A stretch of DNA of 64,000 nucleotides, taken from NCBI RefSeq assembly GCF_001428895.1, contig NZ_LMJA01000004.1, forward strand, positions 1-64,000, written 5' to 3'. The translations under genes were made by a program, and so were the position numbers. Shown here piece after piece: positions 15,640 to 20,562 of this stretch. The notes under the pieces are model-generated. The model did no database searches and had not been told where the DNA came from. It was given only the letters and a program-made list of their open reading frames with translations. Numbering within the stretch: the stretch's first letter is position 1; every line of letters starts with the position of its first letter. The stretch is from Mycobacterium sp. Root265. Its GTDB lineage: Bacteria > Actinomycetota > Actinomycetes > Mycobacteriales > Mycobacteriaceae.

Positions 15640-16389
15640 TCACCGGTAGGTATCGAAGCCCAGCTTGACCGCCAGCGCCAGACCGGCGACCGCGATCAGC
15701 ATGCGCAGCGGGGTGGCGGGTGCGTGCCGCACCACGGTGGGGCCGAGTCGGGAGCCGATCAGGCAACCGATGCCCATCGCCGCCACGGCCGGCCAGTGCA
15801 CCGGTGCGACGATCGCGAACACCACGGCCGCAGCGCCATTGGAGGATCCGAGCACCACGTTCTTGGTGGCGTTGGCATCGGCGAGGGTGTTCGCGCCGGT
15901 GCGCAGGAACAACGCCAGCAGCAGCACTCCCGCTGCGGCACCGAAGAATCCGCCGTACACCGCGATGACGCCCACGGCGATCGCCTGCAGGGTGAGGTGC
16001 CGTGCCGTCGGTGCGTCGTCGGTGTCCTTGCCCCGGGGCAGCGCGATCGCCACCGCGGCCACCGCGAGCAGGATGGGCACCGCGTTCTCGAAACCCTCCG
16101 AGGGAATGGACAACAGCAGCACCGCACCCGCGAGACCGCCGAGCACGCCCACCGGGACGAGTCGTCTGAGGGTGGGAGCCTGACCCACCAGTTCGGGCAG
16201 CGAGCCGCGCACCGAGCCGAAGGCGTTGAACACCAGTGCCACCGTGTTCGTCACGTTGGCGGTCACCGGCGGCAGACCGACCATCAGCAGGGCCGGGTAG
16301 GTGGACACCGAGGCCAGCCCGGCGATGCTGCCGGTCAGCCCGCCACCGATACCGGCGGCGAACAGCAGCGCGATCTCGGCCCATGTCAC
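15640..16389 (-). CDS. TauE/SafE-family membrane permease
   Basis: The 249-aa protein has about eight hydrophobic segments in the two-repeat TauE/SafE layout: an N-terminal GIGGGLTGSIAGLASVSTYPALL and a second-half VYGGFFGAAAGVLLLA, each with the typical glycine-rich turn, and a C-terminal GSRLGPTVVRHAPATPLRM. The family exports sulfite, sulfoacetate or other organosulfur anions. GTG at 16389 is the likely start, since the longer ORF (to 16470) runs through promoter sequence for the divergent leader. Its stop lies 3 bases from the convergent peptidase gene's stop. The sulfur-anion role is by family only. Confidence 0.85.
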   Translation of the reverse strand: MTWAEIALLFAAGIGGGLTGSIAGLASVSTYPALLMVGLPPVTANVTNTVALVFNAFGSVRGSLPELVGQAPTLRRLVPVGVLGGLAGAVLLLSIPSEGFENAVPILLAVAAVAIALPRGKDTDDAPTARHLTLQAIAVGVIAVYGGFFGAAAGVLLLALFLRTGANTLADANATKNVVLGSSNGAAAVVFAIVAPVHWPAVAAMGIGCLIGSRLGPTVVRHAPATPLRMLIAVAGLALAVKLGFDTYR

Positions 16390-16452
16390 CGGGCCATCTT
16401 TGCCTATCTGATTCGCCGGGTCGCTGCGCTCCCACCCGCCGCCACAAAGAAG

Positions 16453-16482
16453 TTGCGCGCACCCGCCCAACGGGTCTAACCT
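16453..16482 (+). promoter_or_regulatory. SigA-type promoter of the leader peptide
   Basis: TTGCGC (16453-16458), an 18-base spacer and TAACCT (16477-16482) form a plausible housekeeping promoter. Position +1 would fall at about 16490, which is the GTG of the leader peptide, so the leader would be translated as leaderless mRNA, a common arrangement in mycobacteria. Confidence 0.55.
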
Positions 16483-16489
16483 CGGCCAC

Positions 16490-16534
16490 GTGATTCACCT
16501 TCTCGTAGTAGCCAGCACCCGCAGCGGGGTCTGA
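16490..16534 (+). CDS. Leader peptide with Leu-Leu-Val-Val codons
   Basis: GTG at 16490 opens a 14-codon frame reading M-I-H-L-L-V-V-A-S-T-R-S-G-V followed by TGA. Two Leu codons (CTT, CTC; CTT is rare in such GC-rich DNA) are followed directly by two GTA Val codons, also rare. The GTA-GTA-GC stretch is the 5' arm of a downstream hairpin. This is the design of branched-chain amino-acid attenuators. No ribosome site is present, and leaderless initiation fits the promoter spacing. Confidence 0.65.
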   Translation: MIHLLVVASTRSGV

Positions 16535-16605
16535 TCCAGACCGACCCCCCGCTGTGGGTCGGAAGCTACTACCCGTCGGTCGCTCCCTTTGAGCAGAGAA
16601 GACCG
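16505..16605 (+). promoter_or_regulatory. Attenuator-like leader RNA upstream of the LeuA-domain gene
   Basis: Arms 16505-16512 (GTAGTAGC) and 16565-16572 are exact complements and enclose a 13-pair stem (16517-16529 with 16547-16559, one G-T pair). Two competing hairpins can form inside: 16528-16533 with 16537-16542, and CCGACC (16541-16546) with GGTCGG (16557-16562). Further on CGGTC (16577-16581) can pair with GACCG (16601-16605) next to the ribosome site. Ribosome stalling on the Leu/Val codons would open the outer stem. Control may be of termination or of translation; there is no T-tract. Confidence 0.6.
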
Positions 16606-16609
16606 GCAC

Positions 16610-17083
16610 ATGAACACTCACACCACCACCATCGCGAGCCCCCGCTTCGCGGACTTCTTCGACGCACCCCTGCCGCGCGGACTGCGTGACCTGGCTTCCG
16701 AAATGTCCTGGGATGACGTCGCGGACACCTTCGGTTCGAGCGCCGGGCCCCTGCACCTGGACCGGTGGGAGCGCGCCGATCGGACCCACGGGCGCCACGC
16801 ACACACCTACCAGGCCACCCTTGCCATCGGCGAGCGCACCATCACGTCATCGGCCACCGCGTCGGGCCCGCTCGGGGCGCTGACCGCGATGCTCCACGAG
16901 CACGGCATCGCCGTCGAGATGCTCAACTTCCATCAGCTGCGCGCCGGCGGGCAGACCGCGACCTTCATCCGTGGCACCGACGGTTCGGATACCGAATGGG
17001 CGATCGGCTGGTCGGAATGCCCGAACCAGTCGGCGCTGCGGGCCGTCATCGCGTGCGCGAACCGGTTGATCGCGGCTTGCTGA
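16610..17083 (+). CDS. Stand-alone LeuA regulatory (allosteric) domain protein
   Basis: The 157-aa protein matches only the C-terminal leucine-sensing domain of alpha-isopropylmalate synthase: LDRWERADRTHGRHAHTYQATLAIGERTITSSATASGP is split here by the usual strands, then LGALTAMLHEHGIAVEMLNFHQLRAG, ATFIRGTDG and SALRAVIACANRL. There is no TIM-barrel catalytic domain. The first 45 residues (FADFFDAPLPRGLRDLA) are a linker of the kind that joins the two parts in full-length LeuA. It could form mixed dimers with LeuA or related synthases, or act as a free leucine sensor; both are inference. It is preceded by a leader peptide and attenuator-like RNA. ATG at 16610 follows GAGAAGA. Confidence 0.75.
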   Translation: MNTHTTTIASPRFADFFDAPLPRGLRDLASEMSWDDVADTFGSSAGPLHLDRWERADRTHGRHAHTYQATLAIGERTITSSATASGPLGALTAMLHEHGIAVEMLNFHQLRAGGQTATFIRGTDGSDTEWAIGWSECPNQSALRAVIACANRLIAAC

Positions 17084-17098: not shown

Positions 17099-17476
17099 CT
17101 AACGCAGCGCCCAGGCGCCGAACGCCACGGCAGCCGCGGGCACGCCGACCATCGCTGCGGCACTGAGCGGTGTGACCTCACCGCGGCCCAGCGCGCCGGC
17201 GGTGCCGTCGGCGACATCGCAGGCCAGCCCGACCCGCGCCCACACCCGGCGGCGTGAGCCGGTCGAGGCCACCGTGCCCAACCCGACCATCACATCGCGC
17301 ACCCCGAACAACCGCCACAGGTAGCGCGCCTGACCGTCAGGGCGCGGGAAACCGAACAGCGACGAGGCCGCATCCGGTCGCACCCAGGCCAGGGCGCCGA
17401 TGCCGATCCGCATGGCCGCCAGGGACACGATGCCCGCCTCGGCAAGGCGGGCGCCGCGGTCGGGGGCGGTGCTCAT
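17099..17476 (-). CDS. Small membrane protein, DUF4267-like
   Basis: The 125-aa protein has three or four hydrophobic segments (VSLAAMRIGIGALAWV, LFGVRDVMVGLGTVAS, PLSAAAMVGVPAAAVAFGAWAL) with a YLWRLFGVRD motif like DUF4267 integral membrane proteins. Function is unknown. Its ATG overlaps the stop of the upstream P450 (ATGA), so it is translated from the same message and may accompany the P450 in the membrane. Confidence 0.7.
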   Translation of the reverse strand: MSTAPDRGARLAEAGIVSLAAMRIGIGALAWVRPDAASSLFGFPRPDGQARYLWRLFGVRDVMVGLGTVASTGSRRRVWARVGLACDVADGTAGALGRGEVTPLSAAAMVGVPAAAVAFGAWALR

Positions 17477-18969
17477 CAGAGCGGGCGCAGGATGACCGGC
17501 ATGCCGTCCATCGGCACCGGCATCCCGGCGTAGTCCAGCTTCGCCTTGTAGCCGGGGTAGGGCGGCTCCAGCCGGTACTTGCGCAGCAACCGGTGCATGA
17601 CGGTCTTGATCTCCAGCTGGCCGAAGACCATGCCGATGCACTTGTGCGCGCCGCCGCCGAACGGAGCGAACGCGTAGCGATGCCGCTTGTGTTCGTTGCG
17701 CGGTTCGGCGAACCGGTCCGGGTCGAACTTCTCCGGGTCGGTCCACAGTTCGGGCAGGTAATGGTTGATCGACGGCCAGGTCACCACGTTGGTGTTGGCC
17801 GGGATGAAGTGGCCGAGCAGTTCGGTGTCGCGCACCGTGGACCGCACGTTGAAGGGCAACGGGGTCACCAGGCGCAGCGCCTCGTTGATCACCAGGTCGA
17901 GGGTCTCCAGCTTGTCCAGCGCCTCGATGTCGAGCGGCCCGTCCCCGAGTCGTGCGCTCTCTTCGCGACAGCGTTCCTGCCATTCCGGGTTGGCAGCCAG
18001 GTGATACACCATGGTGGTCAGCGTCGAGGTGGACGTGTCGTGCGCCGCCATCATCAGGAAGATCATGTGGTTGACGATGTCCTGATCGGTGAACGTGTTG
18101 CCGTCATCGTCGGAGGTGTGACACAGCACCGTGAGCATGTCGGTGCCGTCGGAGTTGCGCTTCTCCTTCACCCGCTCCTCGAAGTAGTTGTCGAGCACCT
18201 TGCGGGCCTGCAGTCCCCGCCACCACTTGAACGGCGGCACGCCGGTGCGGATGATGGCGCCGCCCGCGCGGGTGGTCATGGTGAACGCGTCGTTGACCTT
18301 CGTCACCAATTCCTTGTCGCTGCCGGGCTCATGGCCCATGAACACCACCGAGGCGATGTCCAGCGTCAGCTCCTTGACCGCCGGGTAGAAGAGGAAGCGG
18401 GCATCGTTTTCCACCCAGTCATGGGCGATGACCGCCGACGCCACCCGGTCGATGTGCTCGACGTAGCCCGTGAGCCGGCTGCGGGTGAAGGCCTCCTGCA
18501 TGATCCGGCGGTGGAACATGTGCTCATCGAAGTCGAGCATCATCAGCCCGCGGTTGAAGAACGGCCCGATGACCGGATCCCAGCCCTTCTGCGAGAAGTC
18601 CTTGTTCCGGTTGGAGAACACCGCCTGGGTGGCATCCGGCCCGAGCGCGGCCACGCTGGGCAGCGCAGGGGAGTAGGCGTAGTGCACCGGGCCGAACTTC
18701 TTGTACACCTCGAGCAGATACTCGGGCCCGGCCCGGAACGTCTCGATCATGTGGCCCAGGATCGGCACACCAGAGTCGCCCATCACCGGCTTGAGCCCGC
18801 TGCCGGCGGGCGGCTCGGCCAGCACGAACTGCTTGAAATCGTGCTGCCGCAGCCGCTTCTCGACCGACCCCAGGCCGGGCATGTTGTTCAGGGTGGGGGT
18901 GAGTTTGCGCTTGGCCTGATCGAGCAGATAGGCCGGAGTACTGACGGCGGGCTTGCTGGTGGTCGGCAC
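17476..18969 (-). CDS. Cytochrome P450, CYP136-like (copy 1)
   Basis: The 497-aa P450 has an I-helix AAHDT at 308-312, ExxR (EALR) at 363-366, PDRF near 417-420 and the heme loop FGGGAHKCIG with Cys444. It is longer than most bacterial P450s, as is CYP136 (Rv3059), whose genomic neighbourhood it shares. It is a clear tandem paralogue of the next P450, with the heme region identical for many residues. A 26-base palindrome lies 73 bases before its start. The downstream membrane protein overlaps by 4 bases. Substrate unknown; a hydrophobic lipid is likely from family. Confidence 0.9.
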   Translation of the reverse strand: MPTTSKPAVSTPAYLLDQAKRKLTPTLNNMPGLGSVEKRLRQHDFKQFVLAEPPAGSGLKPVMGDSGVPILGHMIETFRAGPEYLLEVYKKFGPVHYAYSPALPSVAALGPDATQAVFSNRNKDFSQKGWDPVIGPFFNRGLMMLDFDEHMFHRRIMQEAFTRSRLTGYVEHIDRVASAVIAHDWVENDARFLFYPAVKELTLDIASVVFMGHEPGSDKELVTKVNDAFTMTTRAGGAIIRTGVPPFKWWRGLQARKVLDNYFEERVKEKRNSDGTDMLTVLCHTSDDDGNTFTDQDIVNHMIFLMMAAHDTSTSTLTTMVYHLAANPEWQERCREESARLGDGPLDIEALDKLETLDLVINEALRLVTPLPFNVRSTVRDTELLGHFIPANTNVVTWPSINHYLPELWTDPEKFDPDRFAEPRNEHKRHRYAFAPFGGGAHKCIGMVFGQLEIKTVMHRLLRKYRLEPPYPGYKAKLDYAGMPVPMDGMPVILRPL

Positions 18970-19041
18970 TGGCGGGCCTCCTCAAACGGTTCGTGCGGAC
19001 AGACCTGTGGTCGATGTCACTCTTGGCAGACATCCTGTACG

Positions 19042-19067
19042 TCAAACTTGACGCATGTCAAGTTTGA
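19042..19067. promoter_or_regulatory. Perfect palindrome upstream of P450 copy 1 (TetR operator)
   Basis: Eleven-base arms TCAAACTTGAC and GTCAAGTTTGA flank GCAT: 26 bases of perfect dyad symmetry. The 18-base core recurs exactly at 20643-20660 between P450 copy 2 and the TetR gene, preceded at both sites by a CATCCTGTA stretch. This suits the neighbouring TetR protein. Confidence 0.7.
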
Positions 19068-19080
19068 TCGCGGTGTGGGC

Positions 19081-20562
19081 TCAGCGGATGGGGCGCAAGA
19101 TGATTGGCATACCGTCCATCGGCACCGGCATCCCGCCGTTGTCCCATCGCGGGGTGTAACCGGGCTTGACCACTTCCAGCCGGTAATTGCGCAGCATCCG
19201 GTGCACGATCGTCTTGATCTCCAACTGGCCGAAGACCATGCCGATGCACTTGTGCGCGCCACCGCCGAACGGTGCGAAGGCGTAGCGGTGCTTCTTGTGT
19301 TCGCTGCGCGGCTCGGCGAAGCGGTCCGGATCGAAGGTGTCCGGGTCGGTCCACAGCTCGGGCAGCCGGTGGTTCATGCCCGGCCAGGTCACCACGTTGG
19401 TGCCGGCGGGCACGTAGTAGCCGAGCAGGTCGGTGTCGCGCACGGTCTGGCGCATGTTGAACGGCAGCGGTGTCACCATGCGCAGCGACTCGTTGATCAC
19501 CAGGTCGAGGGTCTCCAGCTTGTCGAGCGCCTCGATGTCGAGCGGGCCGTCCCCGAGGCGGTCGGACTCGTCGCGGCAACGCTCCTGCCACTCGGGATTG
19601 GCGGCCAGGTGGTAGGCGATGGTGGTCGTCGTCGACGTCGAGGTGTCGTGTGCGGCCATCATCAGGAAGATCATGTGGTTGACGATGTCTTCGTCGGAGA
19701 ACGAGTTGCCGTCGTCGTCGCTGGTGTGGCACAGCACCGACAGCATGTCGGTGCCACCGGAGTTACGGCGTTCCTTGATGCGCTCGACGAAGTAGTCCTC
19801 CAGCACCTTGCGGGCGCGCAGCCCCTGCCACCATTTGAACGGCGGCACGCTGAACCGCAGGATCGCCCCGCCCGAGCGGGTGGTGGTGGCGAATGCGTCG
19901 TTGACCTTGGTGACCAGTTCGTGGTCGTGCCCGCCGTGCTCGTGGCCCATGAACACCACCGAGGCGATGTCGAGGGTCAGTTCCTTCATGGCCGGGTGGA
20001 ACAGGAAACGGGCATCGTTGGTCTGCCAGGCCGCGACCTCCGCGGTGGCTACTTGGTCAATGTGCTCGACGTACCCGGTCAACCGGGTCCGGGTGAAGGC
20101 CTCCTGCATGATGCGGCGGTGGAACATGTGTTCCTCGAAATCGAGCATCATCAGCCCGCGGTTGAAGAACGGGCCGATGACCGGATGCCAGCCCTTCTGC
20201 GAGTAGTCCTTGTTCCGGTTGGAGAAGATGGTCTGGGTGGCGTCCGGGCCGAGCGCGACGATCGAGGGCAGGATCGGCGAATCGGCAAAGGTGATGGGCC
20301 CGCGGGTGTTGTACAGGTGCAACGGGAAGTCCGCACCCTCGCGGAACATCTCGATGATGTGCCCGACCAGTGGTAGGCCCGAATCTCCGGCGATGGCCTT
20401 GAGCCCGCTGCCGGCCGGCGGTTCGGCCAGGATGTGCTGCTTCCACTCGTGGTTGAGCAAACGCTTCTCGATGGCCCCCATGCCGGGGATCGTGTTCACC
20501 GTCGGAGTGAATCGTCGTTTGGCCTGATCCAGCAGGTAGCTCGGGGTGCTGACGGTCGACAT
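19081..20562 (-). CDS. Cytochrome P450, CYP136-like (copy 2)
   Basis: The 493-aa P450 has I-helix AAHDT at 303-307, ESLR in the K-helix, and heme loop FGGGAHKCIG with Cys439. It aligns with copy 1 nearly without gaps, differing at the N-terminus and in scattered substitutions (for example HGGHDHE against PGSDKE in the F-G region, which often shapes substrate entry). It is divergent from the TetR gene across a 135-base gap with a shared palindrome. Which copy is the true CYP136 orthologue cannot be told without alignment. Confidence 0.9.
   Translation of the reverse strand: MSTVSTPSYLLDQAKRRFTPTVNTIPGMGAIEKRLLNHEWKQHILAEPPAGSGLKAIAGDSGLPLVGHIIEMFREGADFPLHLYNTRGPITFADSPILPSIVALGPDATQTIFSNRNKDYSQKGWHPVIGPFFNRGLMMLDFEEHMFHRRIMQEAFTRTRLTGYVEHIDQVATAEVAAWQTNDARFLFHPAMKELTLDIASVVFMGHEHGGHDHELVTKVNDAFATTTRSGGAILRFSVPPFKWWQGLRARKVLEDYFVERIKERRNSGGTDMLSVLCHTSDDDGNSFSDEDIVNHMIFLMMAAHDTSTSTTTTIAYHLAANPEWQERCRDESDRLGDGPLDIEALDKLETLDLVINESLRMVTPLPFNMRQTVRDTDLLGYYVPAGTNVVTWPGMNHRLPELWTDPDTFDPDRFAEPRSEHKKHRYAFAPFGGGAHKCIGMVFGQLEIKTIVHRMLRNYRLEVVKPGYTPRWDNGGMPVPMDGMPIILRPIR

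Follow-up and report, generated by a model that had tools for sequence, protein, structure and literature searches.

In the window, by which we mean the whole 64,000-nt stretch of Mycobacterium sp. Root265 that was analysed, positions 16453 to 17083 appear to hold an old truncated paralogue of leuA, which would have kept a 5' leader of the LEU-element type and the 3' regulatory domain while the catalytic barrel is gone. The best explanation of the locus overall, to which we give a probability of about 0.57, is that this paralogue is governed by translation attenuation through a switch between a pseudoknot and a start-region sequester helix, and that its free domain acts in trans on LeuA. The features concerned are given below; paired cells are aligned pair counts with gaps set aside.

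16477..16482, + strand: TAACCT, a -10-like hexamer 7 nt 5' of the leader GTG (TANNNT conserved in the genus)
16490..16534, + strand: leader ORF VIHLLVVASTRSGV with its stop, 14 codons, leaderless-looking (from conservation and frame)
16505..16512, + strand: GTA GTA (rare valine codons) plus GC, the proposed sensing codons and 5' arm (A) of the outer stem (GTA in 132/132 leaders; pairing with 16565-16572)
16517..16529, + strand: 5' arm of the main hairpin (ACCCGCAGCGGGG), within the leader ORF (1705/1716 cells paired)
16539..16545, + strand: pseudoknot loop strand GACCGAC (pairs with 16575-16581)
16547..16559, + strand: 3' arm of the main hairpin (CCCCGCTGTGGGT; from folding and alignment pairing)
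16565..16572, + strand: 3' arm (E) of the outer stem, GCTACTAC, opposite the valine codons (from folding and alignment pairing)
16575..16581, + strand: switch strand GTCGGTC, partner of 16539-16545 in the pseudoknot or of 16601-16607 in the start-region sequester
16596..16601, + strand: GAGAAG, candidate Shine-Dalgarno sequence, judged by where it stands before ATG 16610 (mostly kept in the alignment)
16601..16607, + strand: sequester strand GACCGGC, between the Shine-Dalgarno sequence and the ATG (881/921 cells paired with the switch strand)
16610..17083, + strand: free domain of 157 aa, with the last part of the LeuA linker ahead of the regulatory domain (from profiles, alignment and tree)

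Sequence comparison relates the free domain to the part of LeuA that forms its dimerising leucine-site fold. The LeuA_dimer profile (PF08502) gave 11.9 bits on the window protein, below its curated cut-off of 24.9, and NCBIfam 2-isopropylmalate synthase models matched it at E values of 2e-4 and 5e-4. Across 35 family members, LeuA_dimer matched 22 and two NCBIfam LeuA models matched 33 and 32, all at E <= 0.01. A family profile searched against the PDB found M. tuberculosis LeuA (1sr9/3fig) at a whole-sequence E value of 2.2e-4, to which two stretches contributed, neither of them sufficient by itself; at E <= 1 it otherwise matched just a superoxide dismutase entry (0.58). The window protein shows 30% identity to LeuA over residues 33-153, and alignment with 21 LeuA tails reveals that the free domain spans the region from the LeuA linker (LPRxL...W..F..Y) to the C-terminal NR motif, short of some 16 residues in the linker and some four in a loop. 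Conserved in both groups are L-P-R, W, G-P (of the G-P-x-A-A turn), A-A, W (of W-x-x-G), A and N-R; other positions conserved in LeuA are changed as a group in the free domains, with F for Y and Q for E (alignment columns 166 and 168). The regulatory domain of M. tuberculosis LeuA (1sr9, 3fig) shares G-P, A-A, W-x-x-G and N-R with the window protein, which differs in lacking the catalytic domain. The description of the protein in the earlier note as only the leucine-sensing domain of LeuA was right as to the regulatory domain and the missing catalytic domain, but a piece of the LeuA linker is retained as well. A tree of 58 rows separates the free domains from the LeuA tails by one branch with support of 100/99. 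Descent of the free domain from the second LeuA type is conceivable; with a midpoint root, the tree puts all LeuA rows across one branch from the free domains and so does not decide the matter.

An orthologue was found in 129 of 148 genus genomes (E <= 5.5e-36), while 16 of the remaining genomes gave weak matches only (E 2.9e-4 to 2.4e-7) and three gave none at E <= 1e-3; seven of the 129 genus matches contain one in-frame stop. Among the matches listed for 298 genomes of the order, stand-alone copies, with frames of 157 to 272 aa, occur only in the family of the window, in seven genera including its own, and the matches listed for other families are LeuA-domain frames of 377 to 964 aa, mostly near 600. 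Contig 1 of genome G217 has a pair of equally scoring LeuA-domain matches separated by 3 kb (337686-338060 and 340818-341192), one of them in a frame of 263 aa, which is perhaps another truncated leuA copy.

These data also bear on the suggestion that the locus is a pseudogene, a chance small ORF in front of a decayed leuA fragment. It could draw on the score of the window protein below the Pfam cut-off and on locus L077, the one case in 132 that is cut short by a stop. However, the other 131 proteins reach the C-terminal helix from their own start codon (130 by motif and L060 by eye), orthologues stand in most genus genomes and in other genera of the family, and 11 columns are invariant across the 35 family sequences, so that this conservation already contradicts such a reading and we regard it as extremely improbable. 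The L077 protein (genome G031) is 146 aa long, lacks the C-terminal helix and forms row 20 of the 35-sequence alignment.

The leader proposed in the earlier note, 14 codons of leaderless appearance with the run CTT CTC GTA GTA, is indeed present at 16490-16534 (GTG ATT CAC CTT CTC GTA GTA GCC AGC ACC CGC AGC GGG GTC TGA), and the 5' arm of the main hairpin is made up of its final codons; that note had the leader overlap the 5' arm of a nested hairpin. The TAACCT-to-GTG spacing of 7 nt is as for a leaderless start and would suit leaderless translation. A strict sigma-70 scan requiring two hexamers found no promoter in 16380-16700, and no Rfam family matched in the window at gathering score. Among six ORFs of the window, GTA accounts for 4 of 206 valine codons and CTT for 0 of 215 leucine codons.

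We then compared 138 loci, 129 from the genus scan and 9 from named Mycolicibacterium/Mycobacterium relatives, of which three with identical upstream sequence were removed, leaving 135 distinct loci. Mycolicibacterium neoaurum and M. aurum (loci L042, L039) are among the carriers. The leader is kept in 132 of them; L069 and L141 run into a contig edge and L138 has no leader. L138 (G060; oriented 2331-2744) is the sole genus orthologue with ample upstream sequence yet no leader, and its upstream region holds, by eye, ORFs of hydrogenase-maturation type and others that bear no relation to the locus, which gives the impression of a substituted 5' end. A TANNNT hexamer lies 6 to 10 nt 5' of an in-frame leader start in 131 of the 132 genus loci (all except L051), a count that stands without a shuffled control, and the start codons of these 131 leaders are 112 GTG, 17 ATG, 1 TTG and 1 CTG. 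In every one of the 128 loci in which GTAGTA could be located, 24, 27 or 30 nt separate it from the stop, each a multiple of three; between the stop and GTCGGTC, by contrast, the spacing drifts, and the 132 loci fall 41/72/19 into the three residues modulo 3. This preservation of the frame before the stop, with drift of the spacing after it, is the best sequence evidence that the leader ORF is read.

As for the codons, every one of the 132 free-domain leaders contains GTA, and 130 contain it twice, while the leucine before Val-Val is lost in many genus loci (AVVASTRSGV forms). The conservation of the leader codons, suggested earlier as a check, therefore held for the valine codons but not for the leucine codons, which makes valine no less likely than leucine as the signal. 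Outside the genus, 13 of 17 family loci carry an in-frame leader ending in RSGV before the stop, with one to four GTA codons within the last 12, so a leader frame is conserved across species, its absence having been named in the earlier note as a ground for rejection. The TANNNT hexamer stands at leaderless distance in 7 of these 13, and the scan found none in L167-L172, whose open frames extend further upstream; these longer frames still end in VVVTRRSGV or similar before the stop, and by eye a leaderless GTG further upstream is possible. In L161 the element is present and the frame is broken before the stop. L164 and L165, from another genus with genomes of 2.4 to 2.7 Mb, have a diverged leader (MQ.NI...RVA.ATNPGGG...) and a different hairpin sequence with one GTA kept, and no leader was seen in L173.

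The RNA of this region is unusually stable. The segment 16490-16612 folds at -56.3 kcal/mol (z of -4.95, with 0 of 200 shuffles as good), and the predicted fold pairs GUAGUAGC with GCUACUAC and ACCCGCAGCGGGG with CCCCGCUGUGGGU. In the family alignment, the outer stem 16505-16512:16565-16572 is paired in 945 of 991 cells and the pseudoknot 16539-16545:16575-16581 in 914 of 918. On 44 diverse sequences, the hairpin and pseudoknot together are paired in 96.5% of cells versus 32 to 51% when the arms are slid against each other, and the pairing is thus conserved across species, as the earlier note's proposal called for. The covariation score and the number of doubly changed cells both exceeded all 500 shuffles of these 44 sequences, but a total of three doubly changed pairs was unremarkable (63 of 500 shuffles gave as many or more), and a control slid by +3 equalled that total (3) and surpassed the count of doubly changed cells (9 versus 6). 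The hairpin and loop are nearly invariant in sequence.

A pseudoknot helix score of at least 6.5 was reached by 132 of 132 free-domain elements versus 2.5% of mononucleotide shuffles. The sequester helix is weaker, reaching the same score in 86 of 132 elements versus 11.8% of shuffles, moderately above the shuffled level. Because they share the switch strand 16575-16581, the pseudoknot and the sequester helix are mutually exclusive, and their duplex energies are close (-10.8 and -10.2). In folding without pseudoknots, the switch strand lay in the sequester helix in all nine cases of a stalled or stopped ribosome; the program cannot draw pseudoknots, so this folding does not decide the switch. 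The codon side of the outer stem hardly varies and its far side drifts, partly to G-U pairs, which suggests that the valine codons are held by more than pairing; still, the stem uses the same bases as these codons, and their conservation is therefore not purely codon-based. We also tried a base stem between the leucine codons and the Shine-Dalgarno sequence (CUUCUC:GAGAAG), which exists in the window but is paired in only 465 of 789 family cells, and rejected it as a family feature.

The relation of this element to the leuA leader was revealed by a covariance model (R1) built from 44 free-domain leaders with no leuA leader included. The same genome holds two LeuA-type ORFs above the Pfam cut-off. 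One is the full-length leuA that the earlier note advised looking for, found on contig 30, where the longest listed ATG ORF is 615 aa and the stop-to-stop frame 648 aa; the other is a LeuA paralogue of 568 aa on contig 1 (L002 148-1854, G000). In the genome scan, R1 scored 103.2 bits on the window and 48.2 bits on the leuA leader (E 2.4e-11); third, at 25.9 bits, came the window hairpin read on the antisense strand, with all further matches at E > 2. Since a model made from free-domain leaders finds the leuA leader, the window element is paralogous to the LEU element, and the window leader is, on this sequence match, a paralogue of the leuA leader of its own genome, a point the earlier note missed. 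The leuA leader reads VQRVLLLGRRDGV up to its stop, followed by TCCAGACTGGCCTCCCGTCGCGGG, and the window leader ends in RSGV before its stop, followed by TCCAGACCGACCCCCCGCTGTGGG.

At E <= 0.01, R1 matched in 64 of 200 genomes of the order, and 40 of the listed matches outside the free-domain loci were taken as the leuA-type set. Leu-Leu occurs in all 40 and GTA in one, L246, behind which no LeuA-type ORF was seen. With Leu-Leu in the leuA-type elements and GTA in the free-domain leaders, the codon run has changed with the gene, leucine against mainly valine. The pseudoknot helix score of at least 6.5 was reached by 40 of the 40 leuA-type elements versus 6.9% of shuffles. Its core is GACCGAC:GTCGGTC in 127 of 132 free-domain elements and GACCGGC:GCCGGTC in 33 of 40 leuA-type elements, and the difference between the two families is a two-sided paired change. 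Seven further element loci were inspected by eye (up to the three longest ORFs each), and six of them precede LeuA-type ORFs; L282, considered as a LEU element in front of another gene because no LeuA-type ORF was seen there, is probably a chance match and was set aside. Among the R1 matches listed, no LEU element stands at the 568-aa LeuA paralogue. Second LeuA-type genes in other genomes (L278, L279 and L281) do have leucine-coded elements.

The LEU element described by Seliverstov et al. 2005 (PMC1262725) and the window element both have a leader ORF ending in (D/G/S)GV and a stop, together with a hairpin that starts in the leader, a pseudoknot between its loop and a downstream strand, and a position near the start codon. 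They differ in that the published element has a run of leucine codons, a base stem between these and the Shine-Dalgarno sequence, and leuA behind it, whereas here there is a (Leu-)Val-Val core with GTA, an outer stem between the codons and a spacer arm instead of the Shine-Dalgarno sequence, and a free regulatory domain behind it. Given this core, the window element is a variant of the LEU element and not a plain member.

Membership among ilvB-type leaders, the other family brought up in the earlier note, was dropped, since the R1 match places the leader with that of leuA. We had tried an ilvB-type attenuator and rejected it: the ilvB leader of the same genome differs and has a T-run hairpin by eye, and the window stretch has no terminator-like site. 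That ilvB leader (L143, about 1190-1390) is MYTPDKLVVIGWRVDAALALCRA with codons CTC GTA GTA ATT, and it shows none of the searched element motifs except CTTCTC, which is located elsewhere in the locus. In PMC13236596, the M. tuberculosis ilvB1 leader is shown to be a transcription attenuator with a branched-chain uORF whose LVVI codons include GUA, and expression rises when branched-chain amino acids are low. That paper also cites the leaderless polycysteine uORFs of mycobacteria (Canestrari et al., as cited in PMC13236596), which are likewise short leaderless ORFs whose codons sense an amino acid and gate downstream translation, in that case cysteine. The window leader carries leucine and valine codons instead. 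We know of no pseudoknot in the polycysteine uORFs. Free regulatory subunits exist in IlvN/IlvH of acetohydroxyacid synthase, where the feedback domain is encoded apart from the enzyme, with a fold family different from that of the LeuA regulatory domain. The likeness lies in this separate encoding, while the partner of the window protein is only putative. Among titles and abstract starts of the open-licence papers listed, we recognised none on a stand-alone LeuA regulatory domain or a valine-coded LEU element, and we found no description there of the regulatory protein behind this variant.

In the mechanism we favor, transcription would begin at the leader GTG or next to it, and a ribosome would translate the leader. 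When charged Val-tRNA, and in this species also Leu-tRNA, is short, it would stall on CTT CTC GTA GTA; the main hairpin and pseudoknot could then form and occupy the switch strand, leaving the Shine-Dalgarno sequence and ATG free, and the sensor domain would be made. If the ribosome instead ran on to the stop at 16532, it would sit over the arm of the hairpin and the loop of the pseudoknot, and the switch strand would then pair with 16601-16607 and shut the start region. By the size of the ribosome footprint, a ribosome with 16508 in its A-site would hide the RNA roughly to 16520, with the hairpin core, pseudoknot loop and switch strand left free, and one at 16532 would hide it to about 16544, most of the loop strand 16539-16545. 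From this geometry we infer that stalling favors the pseudoknot and opens the start region.

It is also conceivable that the ribosome position sets Rho-dependent or intrinsic termination rather than translation initiation. This has been shown for the M. tuberculosis ilvB1 leader in PMC13236596, and the coupling of leader translation to a hairpin is the same in kind. But the terminator scan returned 0 terminator-like sites in 16380-16700 and no U-tract was seen by eye at the locus, which speaks against terminator-based attenuation, and a rival helix between the Shine-Dalgarno sequence and the ATG fits control of translation; we consider termination unlikely here, with Rho-dependent control at the leader possible. 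Similarly improbable is a LEU element bound by a protein or ligand, with the leader peptide incidental, as Seliverstov et al. 2005 proposed for leuA. That paper (PMC1262725) names a DEAD-box protein (ML1624 and orthologues) for the leuA element and cites leader mutations in S. coelicolor as inconsistent with classical attenuation. A hairpin and loop kept near-invariant beyond what pairing would need also seem to suit a bound element. It accounts poorly, however, for a frame kept in 128 of 128 loci when the spacing after the stop is not, for codons that differ as a block between the paralogues (Leu-Leu versus GTA), and for a -10-like hexamer at leaderless distance in 131 of 132 loci.

The free domain would most likely act in trans on a LeuA enzyme, its likeliest target. 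Tuning of LeuA by mixed assembly, and a rise of the protein at low leucine, both put forward in the earlier note, are putative. Alternatively, it may be a stand-alone amino-acid-binding protein without contact to LeuA, having another target or buffering its ligand. Its sequence is far from LeuA (30% identity over 33-153), the F-for-Y and Q-for-E positions in columns 166 and 168 differ as a group, and the gene stands alone: its neighbors, a TauE-type transporter, a DUF4267 protein and two P450 genes, are all on the opposite strand, so that, judging by the sequence, no other gene shares the transcript of the sensor gene. Yet both groups keep the other LeuA positions in common (L-P-R, W, G-P, A-A, W, A and N-R), and the leader is that of leuA, which makes an independent function possible though doubtful.

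Returning to a domain that acts on LeuA, we tentatively propose, as a rather unlikely extension, a cross-control from valine to leucine. Valine limitation would induce the free LeuA domain, which would join LeuA and keep it inhibited, steering 2-ketoisovalerate into valine (and pantothenate) rather than leucine; the family would have evolved by truncation of leuA with the leader kept and recoded from leucine to valine. 2-Ketoisovalerate is the shared precursor of valine and leucine, and LeuA is the committed enzyme of leucine synthesis. By pathway logic, if valine shortage is the trigger, a brake on LeuA would save 2-ketoisovalerate for valine. Apart from this extension, the comparison of the leaders, with rare valine codons largely in place of leucine codons, suggests control of leucine synthesis by two amino acids. 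In 2005 the working of the LEU element could not be settled, since leucine-codon mutations in Streptomyces were at odds with attenuation. One genome with two paralogous elements, which have the same hairpin and pseudoknot and carry Leu-Leu-Leu in one and Leu-Leu-Val-Val in the other, allows codon sensing to be compared side by side and, if the reading is true, amounts to a natural codon-swap experiment on the LEU element. The homology would also give a widely conserved mycobacterial protein a clear hypothesis, that of a trans regulator of LeuA.

Next to the sensor gene and convergent with it, the window holds two adjacent related P450 genes at 17476-20562. Of the 138 locus sequences, 136 contain a P450 relative, which makes the locus syntenic across the genus and its neighborhood old. 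In L094, L115 and L119, the upstream gene runs in the same direction and encodes a protein of 578 to 587 aa, by eye a TPP enzyme resembling pyruvate oxidase.
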